A stretch of 64,000 bases of DNA, taken from the NCBI GenBank assembly GCA_026709935.1, contig JAPOSC010000048.1, positions 1 to 64,000 on the forward strand. Reading direction: 5' to 3'. The stretch is from Thiotrichales bacterium (GTDB lineage Bacteria > Pseudomonadota > Gammaproteobacteria > HK1). Position 1 is the stretch's first letter. The number at the start of each line of letters is the position of its first letter. A program made the translations under genes and the position numbers. Below the pieces are notes generated by a model. The model was not told where the DNA came from, searched no databases, and worked only from the letters and a program-made list of their open reading frames with translations. Shown in pieces: positions 38,640 to 63,009 of the stretch.

Positions 38640-38730
<91 letters not shown>

Positions 38731-39028: not shown

Positions 39029-39140
39029 GGTGGTCCGCGTCAGTCCCCCCGCATCGCCAGGTCGTGAACCCCGTCAGGCCCGGAAGGGAGCAGCGGCAGC
39101 GGCGGACGCGAGTGCCGGGGTGCGGCTGGTGCGGGCCGCC
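39029..39140 (+). ncRNA. ffs: Signal recognition particle RNA, small (4.5S) type
   Basis: The universal SRP core is visible at 39071-39095: CCGTCAGGCCCGGAAGGGAG followed by CAGCGG. Its GGAA tetraloop is closed by CCC/GGG and the asymmetric loop binds Ffh. The ends pair as a perfect 10-bp stem, GGTGGTCCGC (39029-39038) with GCGGGCCGCC (39131-39140), allowing G-U. The RNA is about 112 bases, as expected for alphaproteobacteria. A TATCCT box at 38980-38985 may be its -10 element; the true 5' end could lie somewhat upstream. It is in the gap ahead of the first sox operon. Confidence 0.88.
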
Positions 39141-39185: not shown

Positions 39186-39231
39186 GGTCTCTGTGTATAT
39201 TCGCCCCGACTCGAATCCGTGGATGCCGGAT

Positions 39232-40485
39232 GTGCGCTACTCCATCTTCAGCCTCGCCCGAAACGCGCTCAGCCACCATCAGGGGTGGCCGCTGGCTTGG
39301 CGCAGTCCGCAACCGAAGCGCGAGTACGACGTGGTCATCGTCGGGGGCGGTGGGCACGGTCTGGCCGCGGCGTACTACCTCGCGAAGCTGCACGGCATCA
39401 GCAACGTCGCGGTGGTGGAGAAGGGCTGGCTTGGCGGTGGCAACACCGGACGCAACACCACCATCGTCCGCTCGAACTACCTGCTGGAGGCGAATGCGCA
39501 CTTCTACGAGCATTCGCTGAAGCTCTGGGAGGGGCTGACCCGCGACCTGAACTACAACGTCATGTTCAGCCAGCGCGGCGTGGTGAACCTCACCCACAAC
39601 GACGCCCAGATCGACGCCGCCCGACGCCGCGGGAACGCCATGCGGCTGAACGGCATCGATGCGGAGTGGCTCTCGGTCGGTGAGGTTCGGTCGATGGTGC
39701 CGCTTCTGAACTGCTCCCCGGGCGCGCGCTTCCCCATCAACGGTGCGCTCGTGCAGCGCCGCGGCGGGACCGTACGGCACGATGCGGTAGCGTGGGGATA
39801 CGCGCGCGCGGCCGATGCGTGCGGCGTGGACATCATCCAGAACTGCGAAGTCACCGGCCTGCGCATCGACGGGGGGCGCGTCGCCGGCGTCGAGACCACG
39901 CGCGGCGACATCGCGGCGAAGAAGGTCGGTCTCGCGGTGGCGGGCAACAGCTCGCGCCTGGCGGCGATGGCCGGGCTGCGGCTGCCCATCGAATCCCATG
40001 TGCTGCAGGCGATGGTCACCGAGCCGCTCAAGCCCGTACTCGACACAGTGGTGACCTCGGGCGCCGCGCATGTCTACATCAGCCAGACCGACAAGGGCGA
40101 GATCCTCATGGGCGGCGATCTCGACTTCTACAATTCCTATGCGCAGCGCGGGAACCTGCCGACGCTGGAGCACGTCATTCAGGGGGCGATCTCGCTCTTC
40201 CCCTTCCTGAGCCGGCTGCGCCTCATGCGCACTTGGGGCGGGGTGATGGACATGACCATGGACGGCAGCCCCATCCTCGGCAAGCTGCCGGTCGAGGGGC
40301 TCTACATGGACGGCGGCTGGTGCTATGGGGGGTTCAAGGCCACGCCGGGAGCGGGCTGGTGCCACGCCTGGACCATCGCCAACGACGCGCCGCATCCGCT
40401 CAATGCGGCGTTCCGGCTCGATCGCTTCCACCGCGGCGCGCTCCTCGACGAGAAGGGCGTGGGTGCGAGCCCGCAGGCGCACTGA
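39232..40485 (+). CDS. soxB: Sarcosine oxidase subunit beta, operon 1
   Basis: This is the catalytic FAD/FMN subunit (417 residues) of heterotetrameric sarcosine oxidase, which demethylates sarcosine to glycine and hands the methyl group to tetrahydrofolate. [20 protein letters not shown] near residue 32 is the FAD motif. [17 protein letters not shown] follows. [18 protein letters not shown] near residue 180 contains the His that carries covalent FMN in relatives. The GTG at 39232 is chosen because the second soxB and family members start MRYSI. An ATG nine bases earlier would add three residues. First gene of soxBDAG. Confidence 0.93.
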   Translation: MRYSIFSLARNALSHHQGWPLAWRSPQPKREYDVVIVGGGGHGLAAAYYLAKLHGISNVAVVEKGWLGGGNTGRNTTIVRSNYLLEANAHFYEHSLKLWEGLTRDLNYNVMFSQRGVVNLTHNDAQIDAARRRGNAMRLNGIDAEWLSVGEVRSMVPLLNCSPGARFPINGALVQRRGGTVRHDAVAWGYARAADACGVDIIQNCEVTGLRIDGGRVAGVETTRGDIAAKKVGLAVAGNSSRLAAMAGLRLPIESHVLQAMVTEPLKPVLDTVVTSGAAHVYISQTDKGEILMGGDLDFYNSYAQRGNLPTLEHVIQGAISLFPFLSRLRLMRTWGGVMDMTMDGSPILGKLPVEGLYMDGGWCYGGFKATPGAGWCHAWTIANDAPHPLNAAFRLDRFHRGALLDEKGVGASPQAH

Positions 40486-40557
40486 CGCGATGGTTCGGCC
40501 CGACGCACGGATCCGACCGTATCGACACCGCGTCGATGCTCGCAGGGAGCGACCGAC

Positions 40558-40842
40558 ATGCTGCTGATCACGTGCCCGTGGTGCGGGCCGCGCGCTCACA
40601 TCGAGTTTACCTACGGTGGCGACGCCACCGTGGACCGGCCCGCGGACCCGGATGCCGTCTCCGCCGAGGAGTGGCTCGACCACATCTACCTCCGCGACAA
40701 CCCCCGGGGGCCGCACGTCGAATGGTGGCAGCACGGTGCCGGCTGCCGGGGCTGGTTCAAGGTCAGGCGCGATACCTGGACCCACCGCATACACCGAAGC
40801 GGCCCACCCGGCGCCGACCTCGGCGAGGACGAGCCCCGATGA
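40558..40842 (+). CDS. soxD: Sarcosine oxidase subunit delta, operon 1
   Basis: This small zinc subunit (94 residues) stabilises the alpha-beta interface. The Zn ligands are seen as CPWCG near residue 6 and HGAGCRGWF near residue 60 (Cys-x2-Cys and His-x3-Cys). PRGPHVEWWQH and KVRRDTWTHRI are family-typical. It lies 72 bases after soxB and 160 bases before soxA, a looser spacing than in operon 2. Confidence 0.93.
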   Translation: MLLITCPWCGPRAHIEFTYGGDATVDRPADPDAVSAEEWLDHIYLRDNPRGPHVEWWQHGAGCRGWFKVRRDTWTHRIHRSGPPGADLGEDEPR

Positions 40843-41002
40843 TCCCGCCCCTGGCCGTGACGAAGGTTCGCGTCGAACCGGTGGATTCGGGGTTCGGGGC
40901 GCGCGGACGCGCGGCGACGACGATGCGGCAGTCGTCGGCCTCAAGTCCGATGCTCAAGGCGCTCGGACGCATGGTCACGGCCCCGAGCCGGGAAGGATTC
41001 CG

Positions 41003-44002
41003 ATGACCCGCCAGACCCACCGCACCGAGCGGGGAGGGCGCATCGACCGCGATACGCCCCTCGTGTTCACCTTCGACGGCAAGCGCTACACGGGGTATCG
41101 GGGCGACACCCTGGCCTCCGCGCTGCTCGCGAACGGGGTCCGGCTCGTCGGACGCAGCTTCAAGTACCACCGTCGGCGCGGCATCTTCGGGGCCGGGGCG
41201 GAGGAGCCCAACGCGCTGGTCCGCGTCGGCACCGGATCACGGGCCGAGCCGAACCTGAAGGCGACCCGGGTCGCGCTGCACGACGGGCTGCAAGCGCAGA
41301 GCCAGAACCGCTGGCCGTCGCTCGGGCTCGACGCCGGAGCGCTGATCAACGCGGCCTCGAAGCTCTTTCCCGCCGGGTTCTACTACAAGACGTTCATGTG
41401 GCCGGGATCGTGGTGGATGCTCTACGAGCGCTTCATCCGCCGGGCCGCGGGGCTCGGGCGCGCCCCGCTCGATCCGGATCCGGACCATTACGACCGCCGC
41501 TATGCCTTCTGCGACGTGCTCGTGGTGGGGGCGGGACCGGCCGGCCTCATGGCGGCGCTCACCGCGGCCCGCTCGGGCGCGCGCGTGATGCTCGTCGACG
41601 ATGCACTCGCCCCCGGTGGCAGCCTCGCCGCCTCTACCGCCACCATCGAGGATGCCGACCCGATAGCGTTTGCCACCCGGGTCCGAGAGGAGCTTGCATC
41701 CAACGCGAAAGTCCGCGTGCTCGACCGCACCACCGCGTTCGGCTACTACGACGATAATATGGTGGTGGCGGTGGAGCGCCGTGCCGACGGCGCCCCGGCC
41801 CCGCACTGCGCGCGGCAGCGGGTGTGGTGGATTCGGGCCGGGGAAGTCGTGATCGCCACCGGTGCCATCGAGCGCCCCCTCCCGTTCGAGAACAACGATC
41901 TGCCCGGCGTCATGCTCGCCTCCGCCGCCCGCACCTACGTGTTCCAGCACGGCGTCCGTCTCGGCGAACGTGCGGTGCTGTTCACCAACAACGACTCGGC
42001 CTACGAGGCACTGGAGCCGATGCTGGACGCGGGAACGAACGTCGTCGCGGTGGTGGATGCGCGCGACGGCGGACCGGGGGACGACGCCCTTGCCGTGGTC
42101 CGGCGCCTCGGACTGGAACTCGTGTCCGGCAGCGTGGTGATGCGCGCGATCGGGCGCACCGGCGTCGGCGGGGTGGAGGTGCGCTCGCTCTCGGCGGACG
42201 GCGAGGCGGTCGGGGACGATTCCCGGCGTATTCCGTGCGATCTGGTCTGCGTCTCCGGCGGCTGGAGCCCGACCGTCCATCTCTTCTCGCAATCGCAGGG
42301 CCGGCTGCGCTTCGACGCCGCCCGCGCCGCGTTCGTCCCGGGCGAGAGTGCGCAGCGCGAACGTTCGGCCGGGGCCGCGCGCGGCCTCCTCGGCCTGTCC
42401 GAATGCCTCGCCGATGGTGCCGCGGCCGGGGCCGACGCCGCCCGCGCCGCGGGCTTCGACGCCGGATCGGAGCCGGTCTGCCCGGAGGTTCGGGAATGGG
42501 CCGAGGGCGTTCCGGTGCGTCCACTCTGGGCGGTGCCGTTGCCGTCGTGGCGCCACGGCAAGCGCTTTGTCGACTTCCAGAACGACGTGACGGTGGCCGA
42601 CATCGAGCTGGCGGCGCGCGAAGGATACCGCTCGGTCGAGCACCTCAAGCGCTACACCACCCTCGGCATGGGCACTGATCAGGGCCGCACCAGCAACGTC
42701 AACGGACTCGCGGTGCTCGCGGCGACGCTCGGCACCGAGATCCCCGCGGTCGGCACCACCACGTTCCGGCCGCCGTACTCGCCGGTCGCCCTCGGAGCGA
42801 TCGCGGGCCGAGAGGTCGGCATCCACCAGGCGCCGGTGCGCCGCACGCCCATGCACGACTGGCACGTCGAGCACGGGGCGACCTTCGTCACCGTCGGGCC
42901 ATGGCTGCGGGCCCAGTACTACCTCCGCCCCGGCGAGTCCATGATGGACGCCATCAACCGCGAGGCGCGTCACGTGCGCCGGGCGGTGGGGATGGTCGAC
43001 GTGTCCACCCTCGGGAAGATCGAGGTCCGCGGCCGCGACGCGGGGGAGTTCCTGCACCGCGTGTACATCAACCGTATCCGCAACCTTCGGGTGGGACGGT
43101 GCCGCTATGCGTTCATGCTGCGCGAAGACGGCTTCGTCCTCGACGACGGCACCTGCTCCCGGATCCGGGATGACATGTACTACCTCACTACCGGCACCGG
43201 CCATGCCGCGACGGTGATGGCGCATCTGGAGCGTTACGCGCAGACGGTATGGCCGGATCTCGATGTGCATCTCACCTCCGTCACCGATCAGTGGGCGGGG
43301 GCCGCGGTGGCCGGACCCCGTTCGAGGGATCTGCTTGCCGCCGCCTGCGACGGCGCCGGCGTCTCCGACGAGGCGCTGCCCTTCATGGGCTGCATCGAGG
43401 CGACGGTGGCGGGTGCGCCGGTGCGCATCATCCGCATGACTTTCTCCGGCGAACGGGCCTACGAGGTGCACTGTCCGGCCGACTACGGCATCCACGTGTG
43501 GGAGGCACTGCTCGCGGCGGGCGAGTCCTTCGAGGTCATGCCCTACGGCACCGAGGCGCTCGGCGTGCTCCGCATCGAGAAGGGGCACGTGGTCCCGAAT
43601 GAACTCGACGGGCGGACCATCCCCGCCGACTTCGGCTTCGACCGGATGGAGAAGGACGAGGACTTCATCGGCCGCCGTTCGCTGGAGCGGTTCCGGGAAG
43701 GTGGACGGAGGCGCAAGACGTTCGTGGGGCTCATTTCGGAGAACGGCAAGGGGATTCCGCGCGGCGGGCACCTGGTGTGGAACCCGACCGCGCCGCGGCC
43801 GGTGACGATGCTTGGCCACGTCACTTCCGGTTGCTACAGCCCCACTCTGGAGCGCCATATCGCGCTGGCGCTGATGGACGACGGGGAGGACTGGAAGGGT
43901 CGGACGCTCTACGCTGCCTCGCCGCTCACGGCGGACTTCGCCCCGGTGCGGATCACCGACCATGTGTTCATCGACCCCGAGAACCGGCGTCCGAAGGGGT
44001 GA
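41003..44002 (+). CDS. soxA: Sarcosine oxidase subunit alpha, operon 1
   Basis: This 999-residue alpha subunit binds NAD and tetrahydrofolate. An N-terminal 2Fe-2S-like fold without ligands (FDGKRYTGYRGDTLASALLA near residue 25) is followed by the dinucleotide motif VLVVGAGPAGLMAALTAARS near residue 170, a second nucleotide-binding part, the SoxA A3 region VTVADIELAAREGYRSVEHL near residue 530, and GcvT folate-binding domains from about residue 610 to the end. GGAAGGATTCC precedes the ATG. Length is normal. Compared with copy 2, the TMG-DQGRTSN and FRPPYSPV segments are conserved. Confidence 0.94.
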   Translation: MTRQTHRTERGGRIDRDTPLVFTFDGKRYTGYRGDTLASALLANGVRLVGRSFKYHRRRGIFGAGAEEPNALVRVGTGSRAEPNLKATRVALHDGLQAQSQNRWPSLGLDAGALINAASKLFPAGFYYKTFMWPGSWWMLYERFIRRAAGLGRAPLDPDPDHYDRRYAFCDVLVVGAGPAGLMAALTAARSGARVMLVDDALAPGGSLAASTATIEDADPIAFATRVREELASNAKVRVLDRTTAFGYYDDNMVVAVERRADGAPAPHCARQRVWWIRAGEVVIATGAIERPLPFENNDLPGVMLASAARTYVFQHGVRLGERAVLFTNNDSAYEALEPMLDAGTNVVAVVDARDGGPGDDALAVVRRLGLELVSGSVVMRAIGRTGVGGVEVRSLSADGEAVGDDSRRIPCDLVCVSGGWSPTVHLFSQSQGRLRFDAARAAFVPGESAQRERSAGAARGLLGLSECLADGAAAGADAARAAGFDAGSEPVCPEVREWAEGVPVRPLWAVPLPSWRHGKRFVDFQNDVTVADIELAAREGYRSVEHLKRYTTLGMGTDQGRTSNVNGLAVLAATLGTEIPAVGTTTFRPPYSPVALGAIAGREVGIHQAPVRRTPMHDWHVEHGATFVTVGPWLRAQYYLRPGESMMDAINREARHVRRAVGMVDVSTLGKIEVRGRDAGEFLHRVYINRIRNLRVGRCRYAFMLREDGFVLDDGTCSRIRDDMYYLTTGTGHAATVMAHLERYAQTVWPDLDVHLTSVTDQWAGAAVAGPRSRDLLAAACDGAGVSDEALPFMGCIEATVAGAPVRIIRMTFSGERAYEVHCPADYGIHVWEALLAAGESFEVMPYGTEALGVLRIEKGHVVPNELDGRTIPADFGFDRMEKDEDFIGRRSLERFREGGRRRKTFVGLISENGKGIPRGGHLVWNPTAPRPVTMLGHVTSGCYSPTLERHIALALMDDGEDWKGRTLYAASPLTADFAPVRITDHVFIDPENRRPKG

Positions 44003-44012
44003 GGGAGGCGAC

Positions 44013-44609
44013 ATGAGCGAACCGGCGAGACGCAGCGCGCTGGCGGGCCATGCCCGGGCTGGACGATTCGGCGCCTGTCCGGACGATCTCCCCGGCGTCG
44101 TGCTCGCCGAATGCCGCCCGCGATCGATGGTTCAGGTGAGCGGCGCCCCGCAGCCCGAGGTGCTCGCGGAAGCGCTCGGCGTGCCCCGGGCGGACGTGAA
44201 TCCCAACCGGATATTCGACGCCGGCGCCGTGCACTACGCGTGGAATGGACCGGGCCGGTGGCTCGCCGAGAGCACCGAGCACGCTCCGGGAGCGCTGGTC
44301 GGGCACATCGAGGCCGCGCTCCGCCCCCACGGGGCGAGCACCACCGACCTGAGTCATGCCCGGACCGTTGTGCGCGTATCGGGTCCGGCCGCGACGGACC
44401 TGCTCGCCAAGCTCTGTCCCGTCGACATCGAGGCCCTGCGCACCGGCGACAGCGCCGTGACCCTGGCCGGTCCCTTCAACGTCCAGATCGTGAAGAGTGG
44501 GGACGAGGCATTCCGCCTCTACGTCTTTCGCAGCTTCGGTCTCGCGATGTGGGAGATGCTCCGGGACGAGGCGGCGGAGTTCGGCGGGGAGATCGTGCTC
44601 CCGGAGTAA
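44013..44609 (+). CDS. soxG: Sarcosine oxidase subunit gamma, operon 1
   Basis: The 198-residue gamma subunit has a GcvT-like fold. WNGPGRWLAESTEHAPGAL near residue 72, TDLSHARTVVRVSGPAATDL near residue 110 and the end YVFRSFGLAMWEMLRDEAAE match the family. GGGAGGCGAC precedes the ATG, 11 bases after soxA. It completes soxBDAG 1 and converges with the nitrile-hydratase-like operon. Confidence 0.9.
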   Translation: MSEPARRSALAGHARAGRFGACPDDLPGVVLAECRPRSMVQVSGAPQPEVLAEALGVPRADVNPNRIFDAGAVHYAWNGPGRWLAESTEHAPGALVGHIEAALRPHGASTTDLSHARTVVRVSGPAATDLLAKLCPVDIEALRTGDSAVTLAGPFNVQIVKSGDEAFRLYVFRSFGLAMWEMLRDEAAEFGGEIVLPE

Positions 44610-44785: not shown

Positions 44786-45478
44786 TCAGCCTGCGTGCGG
44801 CTCCGTGACTCCGATGAGGCTGTCCCGGGTCACGAGATCCGCCAGCGCCTCCTCGCTCATGCCCTCGGTGCCGGAAGGGCGCATCGGCAGAACCATGTAC
44901 CGCATGTCTGCGGTGCTGTCGTGGACCCGGATCCGGCGTTCGGAGTCGATCTCGGTGCCGAACTCCGTCAGCACCCGACGCGGCTCGCGCACCGCGCGGC
45001 TGCGGTAGCTGCGCGACTTGTACCAGTCCGGGGGGATGCCGAGCAGGAAGCGCGGATAGCACGAGCACAGGGTGCACACCACGAGGTTGTGGGTGTCGGG
45101 GGTGTTCTCCATGACGAGGATCGGAACGGGGCCGATGTCCATGCCGAGCTCCGTCGCGGCGGCCTTCGAATCCGCCAGCAGCCGCCGCCGGAAGCCGTCG
45201 TCGGACCAGGCGCGGGCCACGAGCCGCGCTCCCCGGGCCGGGGTGAGTGCGTCCATGCGCTCGATCTGCGCGCGCATGTCGTCCGCGCTGAAGATCCCTT
45301 TCTCGATCAGCAGCGAGGTCACTGCCATCTGCATCACCTGATGGTGGGCGAGGGGAGCGTCTTCCAGGTCCGGTCCGGGCGGATGGTGACGGGTCGGGTC
45401 AGCCTCGTACCCATCCGGTCCGCGCGGGGGTGGGTGGTGGGGGTGTGCCGGCGCGCCTGCGTGCTCGTGTCCGCTCAT
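44786..45478 (-). CDS. Nitrile hydratase alpha / thiocyanate hydrolase gamma-type subunit
   Basis: This metal-binding catalytic subunit of 230 residues belongs to the nitrile hydratase alpha family. The metal claw VVCTLCSCYPRFLLGIPPDW near residue 118 has the Cys-Thr-Leu-Cys-Ser-Cys sequence of the cobalt type. [18 protein letters not shown] follows as in the family. The N-terminus has a His/Pro-rich leader of about 40 residues. It is third in an operon after two half-length beta-type genes, each overlapping the next by 4 bases, the arrangement known for thiocyanate hydrolase (scnB-scnA-scnC) and toyocamycin nitrile hydratase. Substrate (nitrile or thiocyanate) cannot be decided here. No Co chaperone gene is adjacent apart from the beta-like parts. 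Confidence 0.87.
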   Translation of the reverse strand: MSGHEHAGAPAHPHHPPPRGPDGYEADPTRHHPPGPDLEDAPLAHHQVMQMAVTSLLIEKGIFSADDMRAQIERMDALTPARGARLVARAWSDDGFRRRLLADSKAAATELGMDIGPVPILVMENTPDTHNLVVCTLCSCYPRFLLGIPPDWYKSRSYRSRAVREPRRVLTEFGTEIDSERRIRVHDSTADMRYMVLPMRPSGTEGMSEEALADLVTRDSLIGVTEPHAG

Positions 45479-45783
45479 GTCGCGTCTCCCGGCATCGGTT
45501 CCAGCCAGTGTTCGTAGATCTCGATCTCCACCCGGTCGTGTTTGCCGCCCTTGTGGTCCGGCCAGAGCGCACGGCTTGCGAACCCGACGCGGTACAGCAC
45601 CTCGCGGTCTGCGTCCCGGTGGCCGTACGCGAGCTGCTCGGGGTTGCGGAACCGCCCGCAGATACGCTCGATCTCGCCGGTCCGCCCGCGACAGTACCAG
45701 GGGGTGCGGATGTGGCCGGGCGGGAAGTGTGCGAGCACCCGGACCCGGTCGCCGGGGGCGAACTTCGCGGCCGCGCCGGTCAT
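45475..45783 (-). CDS. Nitrile hydratase beta C-terminal-half-type subunit
   Basis: This 102-residue SH3-like domain protein matches the C-terminal half of nitrile hydratase beta. FAPGDRVRVLAHFPPGHIRT leads, then WYCRGRTGEIERICG, and the end EIEIYEHWLEPMPG. In thiocyanate hydrolase this half is the separate alpha subunit. ATG overlaps the upstream stop by 4 bases and its own stop overlaps the alpha-type gene by 4 bases. It is complete, not a fragment of a fused gene, because both ends are clean start/stop overlaps. Confidence 0.85.
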   Translation of the reverse strand: MTGAAAKFAPGDRVRVLAHFPPGHIRTPWYCRGRTGEIERICGRFRNPEQLAYGHRDADREVLYRVGFASRALWPDHKGGKHDRVEIEIYEHWLEPMPGDAT

Positions 45784-46103
45784 GGCAGCGTGCGCCTCCG
45801 GCCGGCCTCGATCTCCGCCATGCGCGCGCCGAGCTCACTCACGCCGATGATCTTCTTCTCGAGCAGGAGGTTGGTCATGGACGCCATCCAGCGCTCGTAG
45901 TAGCCGTAGCGGTCGTAGGCGTCGGAGCCAAGCTCCTCGATGCCCCGTCGCAGCTCGTCCACGCCGATGATTCTCCGTTGCCCGAGCAGCACCATGAGCG
46001 CGTCCACGCGCTTCTCCCAGGGCGCCTTGTCGTGCTCGTCGTCCCGCTCGACCGGGCCGGCCTCCAGCCCGCCCATGTCGTGGTGGCGGCGTGCTTCGAT
46101 CAT
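45780..46103 (-). CDS. Nitrile hydratase beta N-terminal-half-type subunit
   Basis: This 107-residue protein matches the N-terminal half of nitrile hydratase beta: HDMGGLEAGPVERDDEHDK then APWEKRVDALMVLLG near residue 27, and YGYYERWMASMTNLLLEKK near residue 65. In thiocyanate hydrolase the equivalent is the beta subunit. It is the first gene of the three-gene operon; GAGGATCTCACC precedes the ATG. The next upstream gene on the same strand is ahcY, whose stop is 103 bases away. Confidence 0.83.
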   Translation of the reverse strand: MIEARRHHDMGGLEAGPVERDDEHDKAPWEKRVDALMVLLGQRRIIGVDELRRGIEELGSDAYDRYGYYERWMASMTNLLLEKKIIGVSELGARMAEIEAGRRRTLP

Positions 46104-46206: not shown

Positions 46207-47502
<1,296 letters not shown>

Positions 47503-50180: not shown

Positions 50181-51428
50181 ATGCGATACTCGATACTCTC
50201 CCTGGCGCGCAACGCACTCACCCGCCACGAACACTGGCCGGCGGCATGGCGCAGCCCCGAGCCCAAACAGTCCTACGACGTGATCATCGTCGGCGGCGGC
50301 GGGCACGGACTCGCAACCGCGTACTACCTTGCGGCGCGGCACGGAGTGCGCAACGTCGCGGTGCTCGAGAAGGGCTGGCTGGGAGGTGGCAACACCGGTC
50401 GCAACACCACCATCATCCGGTCGAACTATCTGTGGGACGAAAGCGCCCACCTCTACGAGCACTCGCTGAAGCTCTACGAGGGTCTGAGCCGGGAGCTCAA
50501 CTTCAACATCATGCTGAGCCAGCGCGGGGTGCTCAACCTCGCTCACAACCTCCACGACATGCGCGAACTCGCGCGGCGGGTGAGCGCCAACCGGCTGAAC
50601 GGCATCGATTCCGAAGTGCTCACGCCGGCTCGGATCAAGGCGATGGTGCCCATCCTCAATACTTCGCCGAAGGTCCGCTACCCGGTTCTGGGGGCGTCGC
50701 TCCAGCGCCGGGGCGGGGTCGCGCGGCACGACGCCGTCGCCTGGGGGTTCGCCCGTGGTGCGGACGCCCGCGGCGTGGACATCATCCAGAACTGCGAGGT
50801 CACCGGCATTCGGCAGCGCGACGGCGTGGTCGAAGGGGTGGAGACCTCCCGGGGCTACATCCAGGCGAGGAAGGTCGGGGTCGTGGTGGCCGGGCACGCG
50901 AGCGTCCTCGCGGCCATGGCCGGATTCAGGCTCCCCATCGACAGCCATCCCCTGCAGGCGTTGGTGTCCGAGCCGATCAAGCCCATCCACCACTCGGTGG
51001 TGATGTCGAACGCGGTGCACGTCTACGTCAGCCAGTCCGACAAGGGTGAACTGGTGATCGGGGCCGGCATCGACGGCTACAACTCCTATGCGCAACATGG
51101 CAGCTTCCCGGTCATCGAGGACCAGATGGGCGCTCTGGTGGAGCTGTTCCCCATCTTCTCGCGCCTGAAGATGCTGCGGCACTGGGCGGGGATCGTCGAC
51201 ACCTGCCCGGACGCGAGCCCGATCATCTCGAAGACTCCGGTCAAGCACCTCTATTTCAACTGCGGCTGGGGGACCGGCGGGTTCAAGGCGACGCCGGGCT
51301 CGGGATGGGTCTTCGCGCATACCATCGCCCACGATGCGCCGCACGCGCTGAACGCGGCGTTCACTCTGGACCGGTTCACGAGCGGCGCCCTCGTCGACGA
51401 GCACGGCGCCGCCGCGGTGGCGCACTGA
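50181..51428 (+). CDS. soxB: Sarcosine oxidase subunit beta, operon 2
   Basis: This second SoxB (415 residues) has the same architecture as copy 1: [20 protein letters not shown] for [23 protein letters not shown], and [19 protein letters not shown] with the FMN-binding His. It differs from copy 1 in many positions, for example the substrate-side [18 protein letters not shown]. The two operons are therefore old paralogues rather than a fresh duplication. It is divergent from metF across 235 bases. First gene of a compact soxBDAG. Confidence 0.93.
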
Positions 51429-51455
51429 ACCGATGAGCGAGAGAGGGCAGTCGCG

Positions 51456-51755
51456 ATGCTGCTGATCGAGTGCCCCTGGTGCGGTTTCCGCGAGGAGAGC
51501 GAGTTCCGCTGCGGGGGCGAGGCGCACATCGTCCGTCCGCTCGATTCCGAGTCGTTGTCCGACGCCGAGTGGGCGGATTACCTGTTCATGCGCACCAATC
51601 CGAAGGGTCGGCATCGGGAGCGGTGGGTGCACGAACACGGCTGCCGGCGGTGGTTCAACGTCGAGCGCGATACTGTCACCCACGAGATCCTCGCGGTGTA
51701 CCGCATGGGTGAACACCCTCCGGCCGAGCCCGCGACCGGTGGAAGAAGGCGATGA
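51456..51755 (+). CDS. soxD: Sarcosine oxidase subunit delta, operon 2
   Basis: This 99-residue zinc subunit has ligands CPWCGFR near residue 6 and HEHGCRRWF near residue 60. It reads EFRCGGEAHIVRP after the first pair, as in the family, and ends in a short basic tail. Its TGA overlaps the soxA ATG by 4 bases, unlike copy 1, where 160 bases intervene. Confidence 0.92.
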   Translation: MLLIECPWCGFREESEFRCGGEAHIVRPLDSESLSDAEWADYLFMRTNPKGRHRERWVHEHGCRRWFNVERDTVTHEILAVYRMGEHPPAEPATGGRRR

Positions 51756-54700
51756 CCAGAGCGGATTTCCGGCTGTCCGTCGGGGGGCGCATCGATCGCG
51801 ACCGCCTCGTCGGTTTCTCGTTCGACGGGGAGCGGTATTCCGGGTTCGCGGGCGACACGCTGGCATCGGCACTGCTGGCCAACGGCGTGCGTCTGGTGGG
51901 GCGAAGTTTCAAATACCACCGCCCGCGGGGAGTGGTCACCGACGGAGTGGAGGAGCCGAACGCGCTGGTCCAGCTCGGCGCCGGCGCGATCGGCGAGCCC
52001 AACGCCCGCGCCACGCAGGTCGAGATCCATGACGGTCTGACCGCCGCCAGCCAGAACCGCTGGCCGAACGTGCGGTTCGACGTCGGCGCCGTCAACGGAC
52101 ACCTGAGTGCGCTGCTTCCCGCCGGCTTCTACTACAAGACCTTCATGTGGCCCGGGAAGTGGTGGATGAAGTACGAGTACTTCATTCGCCGTGCGGCCGG
52201 GCTCGGGCGCGCGCCGACCGGACCGGACCCGGAGATCTACGACAAGTCCTGGGCGCACTGCGACGTGCTGGTGGTCGGCGCCGGTCCGACCGGCCTGACG
52301 GCGGCGCATGCCGCCGGCCGCACCGGCGCCCGGGTGCTCGTCGTCGACGAGCGGCCCGAGCCGGGCGGCCACCTGCTCGGCACCCGCCGGACCATCAACG
52401 ACGCTCCCGCCGGGGAGTGGGTCTCCGCGATGGTGTCCGAACTGGCGGACATGGACGAGGTGCGCATCCTGTCGCGGGCGACCGCGCTCGGATACTACGA
52501 CCACAACTCCCTCACGGTGCTGGAGCGTCGCACCGACCATCTGCCGTACGGAGAGCGCGGCGGCCGGGTCCGCCAGCGTCTTTGGAAGGTGCGCGCGAAG
52601 CAGGTGGTGCTCGCCACCGGGGCGCACGAGCGTCCGCTCGTGTTCCGCAACAACGACCGTCCGGGCGTGATGCTCGCCTCCGCGGCTCAGAGCTACGTCA
52701 ACCGCTACGCGGTGCGTCCCGGTACCGCGGCGGTGGTGTTCACCAACAACGACTCCGCCTACGACCCGGCCCTCGACCTCGCCGACGCCGGCCTGCGGGT
52801 GACAGTGGTCGATGTGCGTACGGAGCTGTCGGATCTCCGGCGTGCACAACTCCGGCGTCGTGGCATCGAGCTGCTGGCCGGGCACGCGATCATCAGCGTG
52901 CGGGGTGCGAAAGCGGTGACCGGGGTTTCGGTCGCGTCACTGACCGCGGCCGCGACCGGGTACACGGGGACGAGCCGGAGGATCCGCTGCGATCTGGTGT
53001 GCATGTCCGGTGGCTGGAACCCGGCCATCCATCTGTTCTCCCAGTCGGGCGGCCGGCTCGCCTTCGACGAGGCCCGGGGGGTGTTCGTTCCCGGCGAGGT
53101 GCGCCAGGCCCAGTTCTCCGTGGGCGGCTGCAACGGGACCGGAGTGCTTGCGTTCGCCCTGTCCGAGGGACGCGAGGCCGGCAAGTCCGCCGCCGCCGCG
53201 TGCGGGTTCCGGATGCGGGGCGGCACTGCGCTGCCCAGAGTCGATGTGGTCGAGGAGGTGCCGATCCGGTTGTTCTGGACGGTTCCGCCGCGCCATCCCG
53301 ACCGCCGGCTGGACAAGCACTTCGTCGATTTCCAGAACGACGTGACCGCGGCCGATATCGCACTCGCGGCCCGGGAGGGCTATCGCTCGGTCGAGCATCT
53401 GAAGCGCTACACGACGACCGGCATGGGCACGGACCAGGGCAAGACGAGCAACGTGAACGCCCTGGCGATCCTGTCCGAAACCCTCGGCGCCGACATCGCC
53501 GCCACCGGCACCACCACCTTCCGTCCTCCGTATACCCCCGTGACGTTCGGCGCCCTGGCCGGTCGGGACGTGGGCGAGCTTTCCGATCCCGTCCGCACCA
53601 CCCCGATGCATCGGTGGCACGTGCAGCAGGGCGCGACATTCGAGGATGTCGGACAGTGGAAGCGGCCCTGGTACTACCCCCGCGACGGCGAGTCGATGCG
53701 CGAGGCTGTCGATCGGGAGTGTCTCGCGGCGCGCAACGCGGTCGGCATCCTTGATGCGTCGACGCTGGGCAAGATCGACGTGCAGGGACCGGACGCGGCG
53801 GAGTTCCTCGATCGGATCTACACGAACGGGTGGAAACGGCTCGAGGTGGGACGGTGCCGGTACGGCCTGATGTGCACCGAGGACGGCATGGTGTTCGACG
53901 ACGGGGTCACCCTGCGGCTCGGAGACCACCACTACCTCGTGCACACCACCAGCGGCAACGCGGCGCGGGTGCTCGGGTGGATGGAGGAGTGGCTGCAGAC
54001 GGAATGGCCGGAACTCCGGGTTTACTGCACCTCGGTGACCGAGCAGACCGCGACTGCATCCATCTCGGGGCCGTTCGCGCGCCGGCTCCTCGCCGCGCTG
54101 ACCACCGACATCGATCTCGATCGGGACGCGTTTCCCTTCATGCACTGGCGGGACGGGCACGTGGCGGGGTTGCCGGCCCGCGTGGCCCGGGTGTCGTTCA
54201 CCGGAGAGTCGTCGTTCGAGGTAAGCGTGCCCGCAGGCTACGGACTCTCGCTGTGGACGGCGCTGATGCACGCCGGCCAGCGCTACGGGATCACTCCCTA
54301 CGGCACGGAGGCGATGCACGTGCTGCGGGCCGAGCGAGGGTTCATCATCGCCGGGCAGGACACCGACGGTACCGTGACCCCGATCGATCTGGGCATGGAG
54401 TGGATCGTCAGCCGTCGCAAGGATTTCATCGGCCGGCGGTCGCTCGACCGCGCCGATACCGTACGTGACGACCGCAAGCAGCTCGTCGGACTGCTGACCG
54501 AGCGCTCCGAGGACGTGCTGCCCGAGGGGGGGCAGATCGTGGAGAGAGTGACCGCGCTGCCAATGCGCATGATCGGCCACGTCACGTCGAGCTACTACAG
54601 TGCCAACCTCGGCCATTCCATCGCACTCGCGCTGGTGCGGGGCGGGCGCAGCCGCCACGGCGAACAGGTCATGGTTCCGCTGGAGCGCTCGGTGATGTCC

Positions 54701-54757
54701 GCGCGCATCACCGAGCCCGGATTCTTCGACCCCGAGGGAGCACGTGCGCATGATTGA
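51752..54757 (+). CDS. soxA: Sarcosine oxidase subunit alpha, operon 2
   Basis: This 1001-residue alpha subunit has the full domain set of copy 1: FDGERYSGFAGDTLASALLA, the dinucleotide motif VLVVGAGPTGLTAAHAAGRT, SYVNRYAVRPGTAAVVFTNN, the A3 region DVTAADIALAAREGYRSVEH, and GcvT domains to the end. The C-terminal residues GARAHD are encoded by a segment that is repeated, with changes, 185 bases downstream at the start of soxG. The gene is otherwise intact. Confidence 0.94.
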   Translation: MTRADFRLSVGGRIDRDRLVGFSFDGERYSGFAGDTLASALLANGVRLVGRSFKYHRPRGVVTDGVEEPNALVQLGAGAIGEPNARATQVEIHDGLTAASQNRWPNVRFDVGAVNGHLSALLPAGFYYKTFMWPGKWWMKYEYFIRRAAGLGRAPTGPDPEIYDKSWAHCDVLVVGAGPTGLTAAHAAGRTGARVLVVDERPEPGGHLLGTRRTINDAPAGEWVSAMVSELADMDEVRILSRATALGYYDHNSLTVLERRTDHLPYGERGGRVRQRLWKVRAKQVVLATGAHERPLVFRNNDRPGVMLASAAQSYVNRYAVRPGTAAVVFTNNDSAYDPALDLADAGLRVTVVDVRTELSDLRRAQLRRRGIELLAGHAIISVRGAKAVTGVSVASLTAAATGYTGTSRRIRCDLVCMSGGWNPAIHLFSQSGGRLAFDEARGVFVPGEVRQAQFSVGGCNGTGVLAFALSEGREAGKSAAAACGFRMRGGTALPRVDVVEEVPIRLFWTVPPRHPDRRLDKHFVDFQNDVTAADIALAAREGYRSVEHLKRYTTTGMGTDQGKTSNVNALAILSETLGADIAATGTTTFRPPYTPVTFGALAGRDVGELSDPVRTTPMHRWHVQQGATFEDVGQWKRPWYYPRDGESMREAVDRECLAARNAVGILDASTLGKIDVQGPDAAEFLDRIYTNGWKRLEVGRCRYGLMCTEDGMVFDDGVTLRLGDHHYLVHTTSGNAARVLGWMEEWLQTEWPELRVYCTSVTEQTATASISGPFARRLLAALTTDIDLDRDAFPFMHWRDGHVAGLPARVARVSFTGESSFEVSVPAGYGLSLWTALMHAGQRYGITPYGTEAMHVLRAERGFIIAGQDTDGTVTPIDLGMEWIVSRRKDFIGRRSLDRADTVRDDRKQLVGLLTERSEDVLPEGGQIVERVTALPMRMIGHVTSSYYSANLGHSIALALVRGGRSRHGEQVMVPLERSVMSARITEPGFFDPEGARAHD

Positions 54758-54950
54758 GCGGGCCTTCGGTGCAGGAACGGTCCGGAAATTTCACCGATTC
54801 CCGGCTGCGGGCACGGATCTGACTGTTTACGCTGCGTTAAACACAGCCAGGGTGTCGATGCCTGACCATCTCCGTACCCTCGCTTCGCGAATCGGTGAAA
54901 TTTCCGGGCTAGCGAGCGATGAGCGCGCAGGAGCACCCGCGCATGACTGA
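54738..54950. mobile_element. Inverted-repeat (MITE-like) insertion between soxA and soxG of operon 2
   Basis: Between the two genes lie 19-bp perfect inverted repeats: CCGGAAATTTCACCGATTC at 54782-54800 and its complement at 54889-54907, enclosing 88 bases. Outside them a ~27-bp imperfect direct repeat (GGAGCACGTGCGCATGATTGAGCGG-like, 54738-54764 and 54923-54950) flanks the unit. No transposase frame fits inside. The arm sequence is related to the inverted repeat at 12012-12069. The likely history is an insertion at the original soxA/soxG overlap, with duplication of the target. Confidence 0.55.
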
Positions 54951-55557
54951 GCGGTATCAACGCCGTAGCGCCCTCGCGCACCTGGGGCTCGAGGCGCGAG
55001 CGTCCGTCGTCGCCGGGGAAGGGGGGGTGACGCTCCGCGAGGCCCCCATGCGTGGCCTTCTGGTGCTGCGCGGAGATGGCGGCGGCAAGGCGTTCCGCAG
55101 CGAGGTGACGGCGGTACTCGGGATCGAGCCCGTGGTTGAACCGTTGACCGCGGCGCGCCGGCGCGATCTGTCCATTCTCTGGCTCGGACCGGACGAGTGG
55201 CTCGTGATCACCCCCGATCGCCGACGGGCACGCATCGAGCGGATGTTGCGCGACGCGCTGGTCGGGCAGCACGCGGCGGTGACCGACGTGTCGCACGGTC
55301 GCACTGTCCTCGTCCTCTCCGGCCCGGATGTCCTTGCGGTCCTGGCGAAAGGATGCTCTCTCGATCTCCATCCCCGCATGTTCGGCCCCGGGCGCTGCGC
55401 GCAGTCGAGGCTTGCCAAGTGCCAGGCCCTGATCCACCAGACGACCGATGCACCGGAGTTCGAAATCCACGTGCCGCGCAGCTTCGCGCAGTACGCATGG
55501 ATGTGGTTGGAGGACGCGGGACAGGAGTTCGATCTCCGCATCGCGCCGGCGGAGTAG
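54943..55557 (+). CDS. soxG: Sarcosine oxidase subunit gamma, operon 2
   Basis: This gamma subunit (204 residues from the chosen start) has the GcvT-like pattern: ILWLGPDEWLVITPDRRR near residue 75, AAVTDVSHGRTVLVLSGPDV near residue 105, and IHVPRSFAQYAWMWLEDAGQ near the end. The ATG at 54943 follows GGAGCACCCGC; an upstream ATG at 54919 lies in the repeat segment and lacks a good site. The stop codon is inside an 18-bp tandem repeat. An inserted repeat element separates it from soxA. Confidence 0.88.
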   Translation: MTERYQRRSALAHLGLEARASVVAGEGGVTLREAPMRGLLVLRGDGGGKAFRSEVTAVLGIEPVVEPLTAARRRDLSILWLGPDEWLVITPDRRRARIERMLRDALVGQHAAVTDVSHGRTVLVLSGPDVLAVLAKGCSLDLHPRMFGPGRCAQSRLAKCQALIHQTTDAPEFEIHVPRSFAQYAWMWLEDAGQEFDLRIAPAE

Positions 55558-58793: not shown

Positions 58794-59537
58794 ATGCAGG
58801 GTGACGAATTCGATCGTGAAGACGATGCCGGCGAAGAGGAAGAACTCGATCTGCGCACGCTGCCCGACGACGAGCTCGTCCGGCAGATGCACGACGATCT
58901 CTACGATGGCCTGAAGGACGAGATCGAGGAAGGCACGCACATCCTGCTGGAGCGCGGGTGGACGGCGAAGCAAGTCCTGGACGATGCGCTCGTCGAGGGC
59001 ATGCGCATCGTCGGGATCGACTTCCGGGACGGCATTCTCTTCGTGCCCGAGGTGCTCCTCGCCGCCAACGCGATGAAGGGCGGGATGACGATCCTCCGCC
59101 CGCTGCTCGCCGAGACCGGTGCGACCACGATCGGCAAGGTGGTCATCGGCACCGTCAAGGGCGACATCCACGACATTGGCAAGAACCTGGTGGGGATGAT
59201 GCTCGAAGGCGCCGGCTTCGAGGTCATCGACCTCGGCATCAACACCGACGCGGACGAGTTCCTGGCCGCACTGGACGAGCACCAGCCGGACATTCTGGGC
59301 ATGTCGGCCCTGCTCACCACCACCATGCCGTACATGAAGGTGGTCATCGACACCCTGAAGGAGCGTGGGCTGCGCGACGACTACACCGTGCTGGTCGGTG
59401 GGGCACCACTCAACGAGCAGTTCGCGGAGGCGGTGGGCGCGGACGCGTACTGTCGCGACGCGGCGGTTGCGGTCGAGACCGCCAAGGACTTCGTGATGCG
59501 CCGCCACAATGTCCGAGGGGCCGCGCTCTCCGCCTGA
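58794..59537 (+). CDS. Corrinoid (B12)-binding methyl-carrier protein
   Basis: This 247-residue protein has an N-terminal four-helix cap (DELVRQMHDDLYDGLKDEIE region, residues 27-100) and a Rossmann-like B12 domain with the cobalt-ligand motif GDIHDIGKNLVGMMLEGAGF near residue 123. MSALLTTTMPYMKVVID and VLVGGAPLNEQFAEAVGAD follow, as in MtbC/MttC/MtgC-type proteins. It would carry a methyl group on cobalt between a first methyltransferase and the downstream pterin methyltransferase. The extra acidic leader of about 20 residues is unusual. GAGGAGCCGCCGCC precedes the ATG. Confidence 0.92.
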   Translation: MQGDEFDREDDAGEEEELDLRTLPDDELVRQMHDDLYDGLKDEIEEGTHILLERGWTAKQVLDDALVEGMRIVGIDFRDGILFVPEVLLAANAMKGGMTILRPLLAETGATTIGKVVIGTVKGDIHDIGKNLVGMMLEGAGFEVIDLGINTDADEFLAALDEHQPDILGMSALLTTTMPYMKVVIDTLKERGLRDDYTVLVGGAPLNEQFAEAVGADAYCRDAAVAVETAKDFVMRRHNVRGAALSA

Positions 59538-59670
59538 CCCGCATTTCTCACTTGTTCTCGGCAAGGACCGGAAAACCGCTCAGGCCTGGATGGGCTCCGG
59601 TTCGAGGGTCTGTGAGAAATGCGTCCGAATGCTCGTCTCCCTCATACACGCCGTGACACGCATTTCTCAT
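59536..59670. repeat. CGCATTTCTCA repeats (one inverted, two direct)
   Basis: CGCATTTCTCAC (59540-59551) and its complement GTGAGAAATGCG (59612-59623) form a 12-bp inverted pair; a third direct copy, ACGCATTTCTCAT, lies at 59658-59670. They fill the gap between the corrinoid protein and the methyltransferase genes. The pair could make a stem around a ~60-base loop. Confidence 0.55.
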
Positions 59671-59747
59671 CAGGTTGCGAGTGAGGGTGCCGCCCACTCG
59701 AGGCGCTGCGGCCCGACTCGATCCGCTCTGCCTGCGAGGAGCCCCCA

Positions 59748-60656
59748 TTGACGGAGACCGTGCTCAGCTCGGCCCGCCGCGAGGTCGTCATCGGATTCGA
59801 ACGTCCGTTCGTCATCATCGGCGAACGCATCAACCCCACCGGCCGCAAGGTGCTGGCGGCGGAGATGGCGGCGGACGATTTCTCCCGCGTCGAGACCGAT
59901 GCGATGGCGCAGGTGCAGGCCGGCGCCCACATGCTTGACGTCAACGCCGGGATTCCACTTGCCGACGAGCCCGCGCTGCTGGCGCGCGCGGTGAAGCTCG
60001 TGCAGTCGGTGACCGACGCCCCCCTGTCCATCGACTCCTCCATCGTTGCCGCGCTGGAGGCGGGACTCGCCGTCTATGAGGGCAAGGCGCTGGTGAACTC
60101 GGTCACCGGCGAGGAGGAGCGACTGGAATCGGTTCTTCCTCTGGTGAGGAAGCACGGCGCGGCGGTGGTCGCGATCTCCAACGACGAGACCGGGATCTCG
60201 GAGGATCCCGACGTCCGGTTCGAGGTCGCGAAGCGAATCGTGGAACGGGCCGCGGACCACGGTATTCCGCGCTCCGACATCGTCGTGGATCCGCTGGTGA
60301 TGCCGATTGGCGCCATCAACCAGGCTGGGCGGCAGGTCATGCACATTCTCAGGAGGTTGCGGGAAGAGCTTAAGGTCAATTCGACCTGTGGCGCCTCGAA
60401 CATCAGCTTCGGGCTGCCGAACCGGAACGGGATCAACGGCACGTTCCTGTCGATGGCGATCACCGCCGGCATGACGTCCGCGATCACCAATCCTCTGCAC
60501 GGCGACATCGTCCAGACCTGCCTTGCCGCCGATGTCATGATGGGGCATGACCCGGACTGCCGGAGGTGGATCGCGAAGTATCGGGAGCCGCCCGCGCCCG
60601 GGAGCGAAGGGGAACGCGGCCGGCGTGCCGGCGGCCGGCGCCGTCGCCGCGGTTGA
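59748..60656 (+). CDS. Methyltetrahydrofolate:corrinoid methyltransferase (pterin-binding)
   Basis: This 302-residue protein has the dihydropteroate-synthase-like barrel of MtgA/AcsE/MetH pterin domains. IIGERINPTGRKVLAAEM near residue 23, GAHMLDVNAGIPLADE near residue 60, SIDSSIVAALEAGL near residue 95, LVNSVTGEEERLESVLPLV near residue 113 and NSTCGASNISFGLPNRNGIN near residue 210 are pterin-binding motifs. It would transfer methyl between the corrinoid protein and tetrahydrofolate. The start is TTG at 59748 after GAGGAGCCCCC. The C-terminus has an Arg/Gly-rich tail of about 25 residues. Confidence 0.9.
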   Translation: MTETVLSSARREVVIGFERPFVIIGERINPTGRKVLAAEMAADDFSRVETDAMAQVQAGAHMLDVNAGIPLADEPALLARAVKLVQSVTDAPLSIDSSIVAALEAGLAVYEGKALVNSVTGEEERLESVLPLVRKHGAAVVAISNDETGISEDPDVRFEVAKRIVERAADHGIPRSDIVVDPLVMPIGAINQAGRQVMHILRRLREELKVNSTCGASNISFGLPNRNGINGTFLSMAITAGMTSAITNPLHGDIVQTCLAADVMMGHDPDCRRWIAKYREPPAPGSEGERGRRAGGRRRRRG

Positions 60657-60957
60657 CGGCACGGCCGGTCAGCCATTGCCGCCGAGCCGGAACATGCGCT
60701 CGAAATCGTCCCGATCGGACGCTCCGGAGGTCGAAATCCTGGCGATATCGCACCGCGTGGCGGTCTCTCGGGCCACCGGCGGGTGTCGCTGACGGCTGGG
60801 CTGGCCGACCCGTTGCCATGTCTCGTCCGTCACCGCACGATTCACGCGGTCCTCGTCGCCGTCACCGACCGGCCGGTGCAGGACCCGGGGCCGTGCCTGA
60901 TCTGTCACCATGTGATTCGCCCCGATCGCGCCCCGCCGTGCCAGGCCCTGCTGCGCC
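60657..60957. other. 301-base gap without a clear gene
   Basis: Nothing is confidently coded here. A short minus-strand frame ending in DFERMFRLGGNG is present. The stretch contains copy B of the 38-bp dispersed repeat. The activator gene start at 60958 has no strong ribosome-binding site, so its true start could lie elsewhere. Confidence 0.35.
60701..60738 (-). repeat. Dispersed 38-bp repeat, copy B
   Basis: The minus strand matches 11497-11534 at 32 of 38 positions without gaps. It lies in the gap between the methyltransferase and the activator genes. Confidence 0.5.
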
Positions 60958-63009
60958 ATGACGTCTCGCCCGGAGAGTGATCCGAAGACCGATGGCCAAG
61001 GCGGGGACGCGCTCGTTGTTTTCACTCCGTCCGGGCGGCGGGGGCGGTTTCCGACCGGGACCCGGATTCTCGATGCGGCCCGCGCCCTCGGGGTGGACCT
61101 CGATTCCGTGTGCGGAGGGCGGGGGATCTGTGGCCGCTGCCAGGTGGTACAGAGCGTCGGGGAGTTCGCCAAGCACGGGGTGAGTTCCCGGGCCGAGCAC
61201 CTCTCTGAATTCGGTCCGATCGAGCGCCGCTACCACGAGAAGCGGGCGCCGCTTGCCCCGGGACGCCGCCTGGGCTGCTCGACCACGGTATTCGGCGACG
61301 TCGTCATCGACGTGCCCCCCGACAGCCAGGTCCACCGGCAGGTGGTGCGCAAGCGCGCCGAGGTGCACGCCATCAAGGTCGATCCGGTGGTGCGCCTGCG
61401 CTATGTCGAGGTCGCTCCCCCCGACATGCACGAACCCTCCGGCGATCTCCGCCGGCTCGAGGTGGCGCTCGGCGAGGAATGGGATCTTTCGGACCTGCGG
61501 TGCGACCTCCAGGTGCTGGAGACCCTGCAGGCAGCCCTGCGCGCCGGCAACTGGCGCGTCACCGTCGCAGTGCACGGCGACCGCGACATCATCGCGGTGT
61601 GGCCGGATCTCGGGGATCGGGTGTACGGGGCGGCGGTCGATATCGGTTCGACCACCATCGCGGCGCATGTCTGCGATCTCGTATCCGGCGACGTCATCGC
61701 CTCGGCCGGCGCCATGAACCCTCAGATCCGGTTCGGTGAGGACCTCATGAGCCGGGTCTCGTACGTGATGATGAACCCGGGCGGAGAGCGGGAGATGACC
61801 GCCGCAGTGCGCGCCGCGATCCGGGACCTGCTCCGCGAAGCGGCGGCGCAGGGCGGTATCGCGCCGGATGAGATCCTGGACGTGACCCTGGTCGGCAACC
61901 CCATCATGCACCACCTCCTGCTCGGCCTGAATCCGGTGGAGCTCGGCCAGGCGCCGTTTGCGCTCACCGTCGATCGCGCGGTCGATCTGCCGGCCGGTGC
62001 GCTCGACCTCGGGCTTCACCCGGGCGCGCGCGCCTACGTGCTGCCGTGCGTGGCGGGGCATGTGGGCGCCGACACCGCCGGGGTCATCCTCTCCGAAGCG
62101 CCGTACCTGCGCGACGAGGTGAGCCTGGTGGTGGATGTCGGCACCAACGCCGAGATCGTGCTCGGCAACCGGGACCGGATGCTCGCGGCGTCGAGCCCGA
62201 CCGGTCCTGCGTTCGAGGGCGCCCAGATCAGCGGCGGACAACGGGCCGCGCCCGGCGCCATCGAGCGGGTGCGCATCGATCCGGCGACTCTGGAACCGCG
62301 GCTCCGGATCATCGGCAGCGACGCCTGGTCGGACGAACCGGGCTTCGATGCGGCTGCGGTCACCGGGATCTGTGGCTCGGGCATCATCGAGGTGGTGGCG
62401 GAGATGTACCTCGCCGGGATCCTCGACGAGGACGGAGTGATTCGCGCGGATGCCGCCCGGCACAGTGACCGCGTGGTCCAGGACGGGCGCACGTACGCCT
62501 ATGTCCTGCATCGGAGTGGTATCGAGGTGCGGGTGACGCAGAACGACGTGCGGGCCATCCAGCTCGCGAAGGCGGCACTGTACGCCGGAGTACGGCTGCT
62601 GATGGATCGCCTCGGGGTGGATCGGGTCGACCGTATCCGCCTCGCGGGGGCGTTCGGGAGCCACATCGACGTCAAGTACGCGATGGTGCTCGGGCTGGTG
62701 CCGGACTGCGCCCTGCCGCACGTGACCTCGGCCGGCAACGCGGCCGGTACCGGCGCCCGTATCGCACTGCTCGACCGGAGCGCACGCTCGGAGATCGAGC
62801 GCACGGTACGCCGCATCGAGAAAATCGAGACCGCCGTCGAGCCCCGCTTCCAGGCGCACTTCGTCGAGGCGATGGCCATCCCCCACAAGACCGCCGCCTA
62901 TCCGGAGCTTGCGAAAGCGGTCACGCTGCCGGCCCGCAAACCCTCGGGTGCGCGCGGAGAAGGCGAGGGCGGAGACCGCCGGCGCCGGCGGCGGGCGAGG
63001 GCGCGCTGA
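60958..63009 (+). CDS. Corrinoid-protein reductive activator (2Fe-2S + ASKHA, RACo/RamA-like)
   Basis: This 683-residue protein should reduce inactive Co(II) corrinoid back to Co(I) with ATP. The N-terminal ferredoxin domain has ligands in DSVCGGRGICGRCQVV near residue 45 plus a later Cys in RRLGCSTTVFG near residue 105. A linker domain follows. The ATP-binding ASKHA domain starts at YGAAVDIGSTTIAAHVCDLV near residue 223, with VDVGTNAEIVLGNRDRMLAA near residue 395, GICGSGIIEVVAEMYLAG near residue 470 and LAGAFGSHIDVKYAM near residue 560. The C-terminal DUF4445-type region is complete, ending in a basic tail. It acts on the corrinoid protein encoded upstream (inference from order). Confidence 0.92.
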   Translation: MTSRPESDPKTDGQGGDALVVFTPSGRRGRFPTGTRILDAARALGVDLDSVCGGRGICGRCQVVQSVGEFAKHGVSSRAEHLSEFGPIERRYHEKRAPLAPGRRLGCSTTVFGDVVIDVPPDSQVHRQVVRKRAEVHAIKVDPVVRLRYVEVAPPDMHEPSGDLRRLEVALGEEWDLSDLRCDLQVLETLQAALRAGNWRVTVAVHGDRDIIAVWPDLGDRVYGAAVDIGSTTIAAHVCDLVSGDVIASAGAMNPQIRFGEDLMSRVSYVMMNPGGEREMTAAVRAAIRDLLREAAAQGGIAPDEILDVTLVGNPIMHHLLLGLNPVELGQAPFALTVDRAVDLPAGALDLGLHPGARAYVLPCVAGHVGADTAGVILSEAPYLRDEVSLVVDVGTNAEIVLGNRDRMLAASSPTGPAFEGAQISGGQRAAPGAIERVRIDPATLEPRLRIIGSDAWSDEPGFDAAAVTGICGSGIIEVVAEMYLAGILDEDGVIRADAARHSDRVVQDGRTYAYVLHRSGIEVRVTQNDVRAIQLAKAALYAGVRLLMDRLGVDRVDRIRLAGAFGSHIDVKYAMVLGLVPDCALPHVTSAGNAAGTGARIALLDRSARSEIERTVRRIEKIETAVEPRFQAHFVEAMAIPHKTAAYPELAKAVTLPARKPSGARGEGEGGDRRRRRRARAR

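Follow-up and report, generated by a model that had tools for sequence, protein, structure and literature searches.

A three-subunit, activator-free operon for a probable cobalt nitrile hydratase beside sarcosine oxidase-type genes in a sponge-type marine bacterium

The three genes and their products

The window, by which we mean the whole stretch of 64,000 nucleotides that was analysed, derives from a sponge-type marine bacterium and carries on its minus strand three genes for the separate N- and C-halves of a nitrile hydratase (NHase) beta subunit, betaN and betaC, and for an alpha subunit. The original prediction of three tightly overlapping genes with split beta halves is borne out by their coordinates, by the 4-base ATGA overlap at each of the betaN-betaC and betaC-alpha junctions and by three Pfam matches, and the cobalt type proposed for alpha is likewise upheld by the CTLCSC motif. 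The features are listed below.

45780..46103, minus strand: betaN subunit gene, 107 aa (Pfam PF21006 NHase_beta_N, E 3.9e-19)
45475..45783, minus strand: betaC subunit gene, 102 aa (Pfam PF02211 NHase_beta_C, E 1.7e-21)
44786..45478, minus strand: alpha subunit gene, 230 aa (Pfam PF02979 NHase_alpha, E 2.3e-77)
45059..45076, minus strand: CTLCSC cobalt-binding motif, alpha residues 135-140, read from the sequence
45050..45052, minus strand: codon of alpha Arg143, at the position of gammaArg136 of thiocyanate hydrolase (SCNase) and of Trp in two-gene NHases
46207..47502, minus strand: ahcY (Pfam AdoHcyase), upstream of betaN; local context and not part of the enzyme

All three are real, functional genes under purifying selection, given their codon-position composition, with a third-position GC of 0.87-0.92, and dN/dS ratios of about 0.17-0.28 against orthologues, obtained from computed dN and dS values.

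The combination of NHase_alpha, beta_N and beta_C domains with CTLCSC, which is invariant among 60 diverse alpha relatives, places the products in the nitrile hydratase superfamily, cobalt type. The alpha subunit, which has a His-rich N-terminus, scores 244.2 with the NCBIfam NHase-alpha model, slightly below the cut-off of 249.85. Its AlphaFold model was poor when built from 12 close sequences (pLDDT 57.6) and reached a pLDDT of 89.3 with 60 diverse sequences in the alignment. All PDB chains matched by the latter model are NHase alpha or SCNase gamma, the best being 3vyh_A (E 2.5e-23). Arg143, the residue following CSCYP, corresponds to SCNase gammaArg136. The residues at this position, Trp in two-gene NHases, are presumably those that steer substrate choice. 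Crystal structures exist for exchanges in both directions, 3vyg showing SCNase with R136W and 3vyh an NHase with the opposite replacement, alphaW116R.

The PDB match of betaN is to residues 5-94 of the Pseudomonas putida beta subunit and, in P. putida numbering, betaN retains R52, E56, Y68, Y69 and W72, with L51 also present. BetaC is the SH3-like C-half of NHase beta, and its R26 is the equivalent of betaArg141 in the Fe-type enzyme, an assignment made from alignment to the segment GHIRMPAYCRG of 1ahj_B. The two catalytic beta arginines, together with Tyr68 and Trp72, are therefore all retained and, with R52 on betaN and R26 on betaC, both cysteine-holding arginines come from two different chains.

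Neither a second NHase alpha nor another beta-N-type protein was found in the genome, which is 95.9% complete and, with only one beta-N-type protein present, yielded no activator gene, leaving a small chance that one was missed; nor was such a gene found in several relatives. Elsewhere the genome encodes a single Ni/Co transporter and about a dozen members of the amidase family. Within the window, genes for a B12-binding protein, a pterin-binding methyltransferase and a RACo-type reactivase constitute a corrinoid methyl-transfer cluster (58794-63009, plus strand), so that the cell has a need for cobalt in any case.

Lineage and distribution of the alpha subunit

The comparison drew on 194 NHase-alpha loci, whose gene orders were classified; they come from genomes within the order, the class and the phylum of the window bacterium, from genomes of G419's class, and from named MAGs and plasmids. 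In the alpha tree, activator-free three-subunit operons and SCNase lie on one side of a branch and two-gene NHases on the other, and support for the branch excluding the two-gene enzymes was high in both the quick tree (SH-aLRT 99) and the careful tree (100/99). SCNase stands as a clade by itself on a long stem (100/100), and a tree that places it outside the activator-free group is not rejected (AU p 0.625).

The window alpha belongs to a clade (100/99) of Immundisolibacterales and marine or sponge Alphaproteobacteria that is nested among alphaproteobacterial sequences. This argues for horizontal transfer of the operon, probably in both directions between alpha- and gammaproteobacteria, several of which are sponge symbionts. 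The named relatives are Gammaproteobacteria MAGs, one of them labelled Immundisolibacterales, and MAGs of the jk18x series derive from Ircinia sponges (PMC9531527). Activator-free three-subunit operons occur in about 60 distinct genomes of the 386 sampled from the class of G419, a lower bound because only part of the hits entered the count. This class appears to be the Alphaproteobacteria, to judge by the named organisms to which its sequences are related and by a published finding that NHases are enriched in that group (PMC7329996 and related literature aside).

Position 143 differs between the three-subunit members and the two-gene NHases. Leaving aside alpha-only and alpha-fused loci, Arg, Lys or Val occurs in all 104 split loci of the window lineage, SCNase included, and in one of the 86 others, the remaining 85 carrying Trp, Phe, His or Thr. 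The sole exception, an operon resembling that of SCNase and carried by a Roseomonas plasmid (L043:3056-4705), encodes SCNase beta and alpha joined in one protein of 283 aa. This signature goes back for the most part to a single evolutionary event or a few, and not to 104 independent ones.

Several further observations were made among these loci. In marine Alphaproteobacteria (L055-L060, L062) a lipoprotein-like gene of 196-201 aa (CYxPxxFxAD) lies directly 3' of alpha. Genes for an aquaporin and for cobalt transporters (NixA or CbtAB) accompany operons of the same lineage from Streptomyces and from Rhizobiaceae plasmids (L041, L042, L270, L271), a hint that the substrate or the product is small and neutral. 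One divergent alpha-like ORF (L016/L038, at G003:C222:1932-2405), 34% identical, lacks CxLCSC and has no nearby beta genes. In three relatives of the window genome, G004 (C1, ~2939195-2945046; L017, L023, L024), G005 (L018, L022, L025) and G012 (L019, L021), ORFs of 110-122 aa with NHase-like leader sequences occur in clusters and probably encode RiPP (NHLP) precursor peptides.

Proposed function and its alternatives

We estimate at about 80% the probability that the operon encodes a stand-alone, three-subunit, activator-free cobalt NHase of the kind exemplified by AnhD-AnhE-AnhA of Streptomyces canus. The genes, motif, lineage, context and lack of a detectable activator are direct observations; the metal, the cysteine oxidation, a chaperone role and the reaction are inferred as follows. 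The alpha CTLCSC motif would hold a low-spin Co(III), with its second and third cysteines oxidised to sulfinate and sulfenate, and betaN and betaC would jointly make up the beta half, R52 and R26 each holding the oxidised cysteines. Water would then be added to a C-N triple bond at the Co(III), yielding an amide. Since an activator gene is absent, maturation would probably occur by direct cobalt insertion plus betaN-assisted swapping, and the odds seem about even that betaN doubles as a cobalt and swap chaperone, by analogy with AnhD (PMC7329996).

As to substrate, the basic Arg143, which is present in SCNase and not in two-gene NHases, would favour a polar or anionic cyano compound, and our confidence in any one named substrate is low. 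We consider it rather doubtful that the three-subunit, activator-free lineage, with its basic pocket residue in common with SCNase, constitutes a functionally distinct class whose natural substrates are cyano compounds of anionic or zwitterionic character, used as a nitrogen source or detoxified, and of which SCNase would be a specialised offshoot.

The sponge connection invites a more specific reading, namely that the enzymes of the sponge and marine clade hydrate nitriles of host origin, such as aeroplysinin-1, or beta-cyanoalanine, but we regard it as unlikely. Several of the MAGs that carry the operon come from Ircinia sponges, an NHase activity whose origin is unknown has been reported in Aplysina sponges (PMC3766881), and a basic pocket residue could pair with a carboxylate. 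On the other hand, close relatives also occur in planktonic bacteria, judged by MAG names, and the Aplysina enzymes prefer manganese and yielded peptides without homology to known NHases (PMC3766881), so that the aeroplysinin-1 NHase was set aside as a counterpart and serves as a lead only.

It is improbable that the enzyme is wholly or mainly a thiocyanate hydrolase, releasing ammonia and COS from thiocyanate. The SCNase of Thiobacillus thioparus (2dd4, 2dd5) resembles it in having the same split of beta, in the cobalt motif, in the Arg at gamma136/alpha143, the site altered by crystallographers, and in the common lineage (100/99). SCNase nevertheless stands apart as a separate long-stemmed clade, and several of its attributes are missing. 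With the TIGR03887 gamma equivalog the window alpha scores 208.3 against a cut-off of 291.45. The gamma insertion of about 10 residues is lacking, the number of residues from Trp to the motif being mostly 45-47 in three-subunit loci and 55-57 in SCNase, as is the beta N-terminal extension of about 40 residues, with a median of 7 residues before HDxGG versus 47 in SCNase. Of the two pocket arginines of SCNase, gammaArg136 has its counterpart in Arg143, while Leu51 takes the place of betaArg90. SCNase loci have the order N-C-A-N with the activator gene after alpha, and no such gene was found here. Membership of the SCNase family was rejected on these grounds; moreover, hydration of neutral nitriles has been reported for three-subunit relatives. 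The original view that the arrangement is that of SCNase and toyocamycin NHase, and not that of two-gene enzymes, thus stands as regards the split beta and the position outside the two-gene NHases. It does not stand as regards exclusivity, because the arrangement is also that of the S. canus NHase (PMC7329996) and is common in Alphaproteobacteria, while SCNase has its extra activator gene.

The location between sox operon 1 and ahcY, considered unexpected at the outset, is confirmed, and three of four genus-mates likewise have ahcY-betaN-betaC-alpha in this order, facing sox operon 1. The metF-metK-ahcY-NHase block lies between two complete heterotetrameric sarcosine-oxidase-type operons (39223-44609, for which Pfam was run, and 50181-55557, plus strand). 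Just upstream of soxB1 are genes for a bacterial small SRP RNA (39038-39134, plus strand) and a tRNA (38643-38730, minus strand).

The wider lineage lends no support to a part in sarcosine, N-methyl or C1 metabolism, as had been suggested. We judge it very unlikely that the enzyme serves sarcosine/N-methyl or SAM-cycle metabolism, for example by hydrating a nitrile formed there and being co-expressed with ahcY. In its favour, metF-metK-ahcY precede the NHase operon co-directionally in three genus-mates, and the ahcY-betaN gap, 103 bp in the window, is 3-21 bp in the two genus-mates measured. The closest operons outside the genus, however, adjoin unrelated genes. In three genomes of the same family (G010-G012) the operon lies elsewhere, with a CoA-transferase and a transporter nearby in two of them, and alphaproteobacterial neighbours include genes for a quinoprotein dehydrogenase, sulfatase, lipoprotein, enolase, HU, ribosomal protein S2, ClpB and others, relatives' neighbours being named by reading their sequences and Pfam being used for the window neighbours only. 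When 36 loci were clustered by their neighbours, the three subunits alone recurred across the lineage, and no neighbour recurred widely outside close relatives. At the locus itself, no SAM/SAH riboswitch was found, and no promoter-like site and no terminator-like site above chance. Sarcosine/N-methyl and SAM-cycle pathways are not known to have a nitrile intermediate. Since neighbours vary and only the three subunits are shared, the sarcosine setting gives no functional clue, and a function read from neighbours was rejected; the position beside the sarcosine genes is a local accident of the genus. For a three-subunit NHase operon that moves horizontally, as we propose, the site between sox and ahcY would be a matter of local history, and the case cautions against inferring function from such a neighbourhood.

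Finally, an ordinary two-gene NHase with a recently split beta gene is scarcely credible: there is precedent in the alpha-betaN-betaC-activator operons of G001, G006 and G007, nested among fused-beta enzymes, where beta was split independently within the two-gene clade, but the window alpha lies outside that clade (100/99) in the phylogeny called for by the original prediction and shares its lineage with SCNase, its pocket position is Arg and not Trp, and a fused beta and adjacent activator are absent, so that a recent split is rejected and the original evolutionary interpretation is upheld.

Comparison with known systems

The kind of enzyme proposed here has already been described; the additions are the pocket signature and the finding that it is broadly distributed. 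The activator-free plan with three subunits, known mainly through reports on individual enzymes, proves to be common in Alphaproteobacteria and forms, with SCNase, a deep branch that is widespread yet little-studied. It offers a compact test bed both for cobalt NHase maturation without an activator and for the influence of a single pocket residue in shifting the choice between nitrile and thiocyanate.

The NHase of Streptomyces canus CGMCC 13662 (AnhD-AnhE-AnhA) is encoded in the order betaN-betaC-alpha and lacks an activator gene, its betaN chain AnhD acts as a metal and self-subunit-swapping chaperone, and it hydrates acetamiprid, thiacloprid and BN, read here as benzonitrile (PMC7329996). 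The window operon has the same order, with no activator found in the genome, the cobalt motif CxLCSC and beta halves as separate subunits. The organisms belong to different phyla; the proposed membership of this kind is based on gene order, the missing activator and related Streptomyces and Microvirga operons, the Streptomyces N-C-A operon L041 falling within the window lineage of the alpha tree.

A plasmid-encoded NHase of Microvirga flocculans also has three subunits, with the alpha gene in the middle (PMC11573777). Plasmid operons of the order C-A-N from Microvirga terrae, Agrobacterium and Rhizobium share the three-subunit plan and encode a CSCYPR alpha of the window lineage, but they differ in having betaC-alpha-betaN order, linked cobalt transporters, often an aquaporin, and Lys at beta position 51. 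The toyocamycin nitrile hydratase ToyJKL of Streptomyces rimosus is likewise described in the literature as composed of three subunits and is encoded in a nucleoside antibiotic cluster. The two-gene cobalt NHases of Pseudonocardia thermophila and Pseudomonas putida share with the window enzyme the fold, the metal motif and the catalytic beta residues, and differ from it in their fused beta subunit, their activator gene and the Trp at the pocket position.
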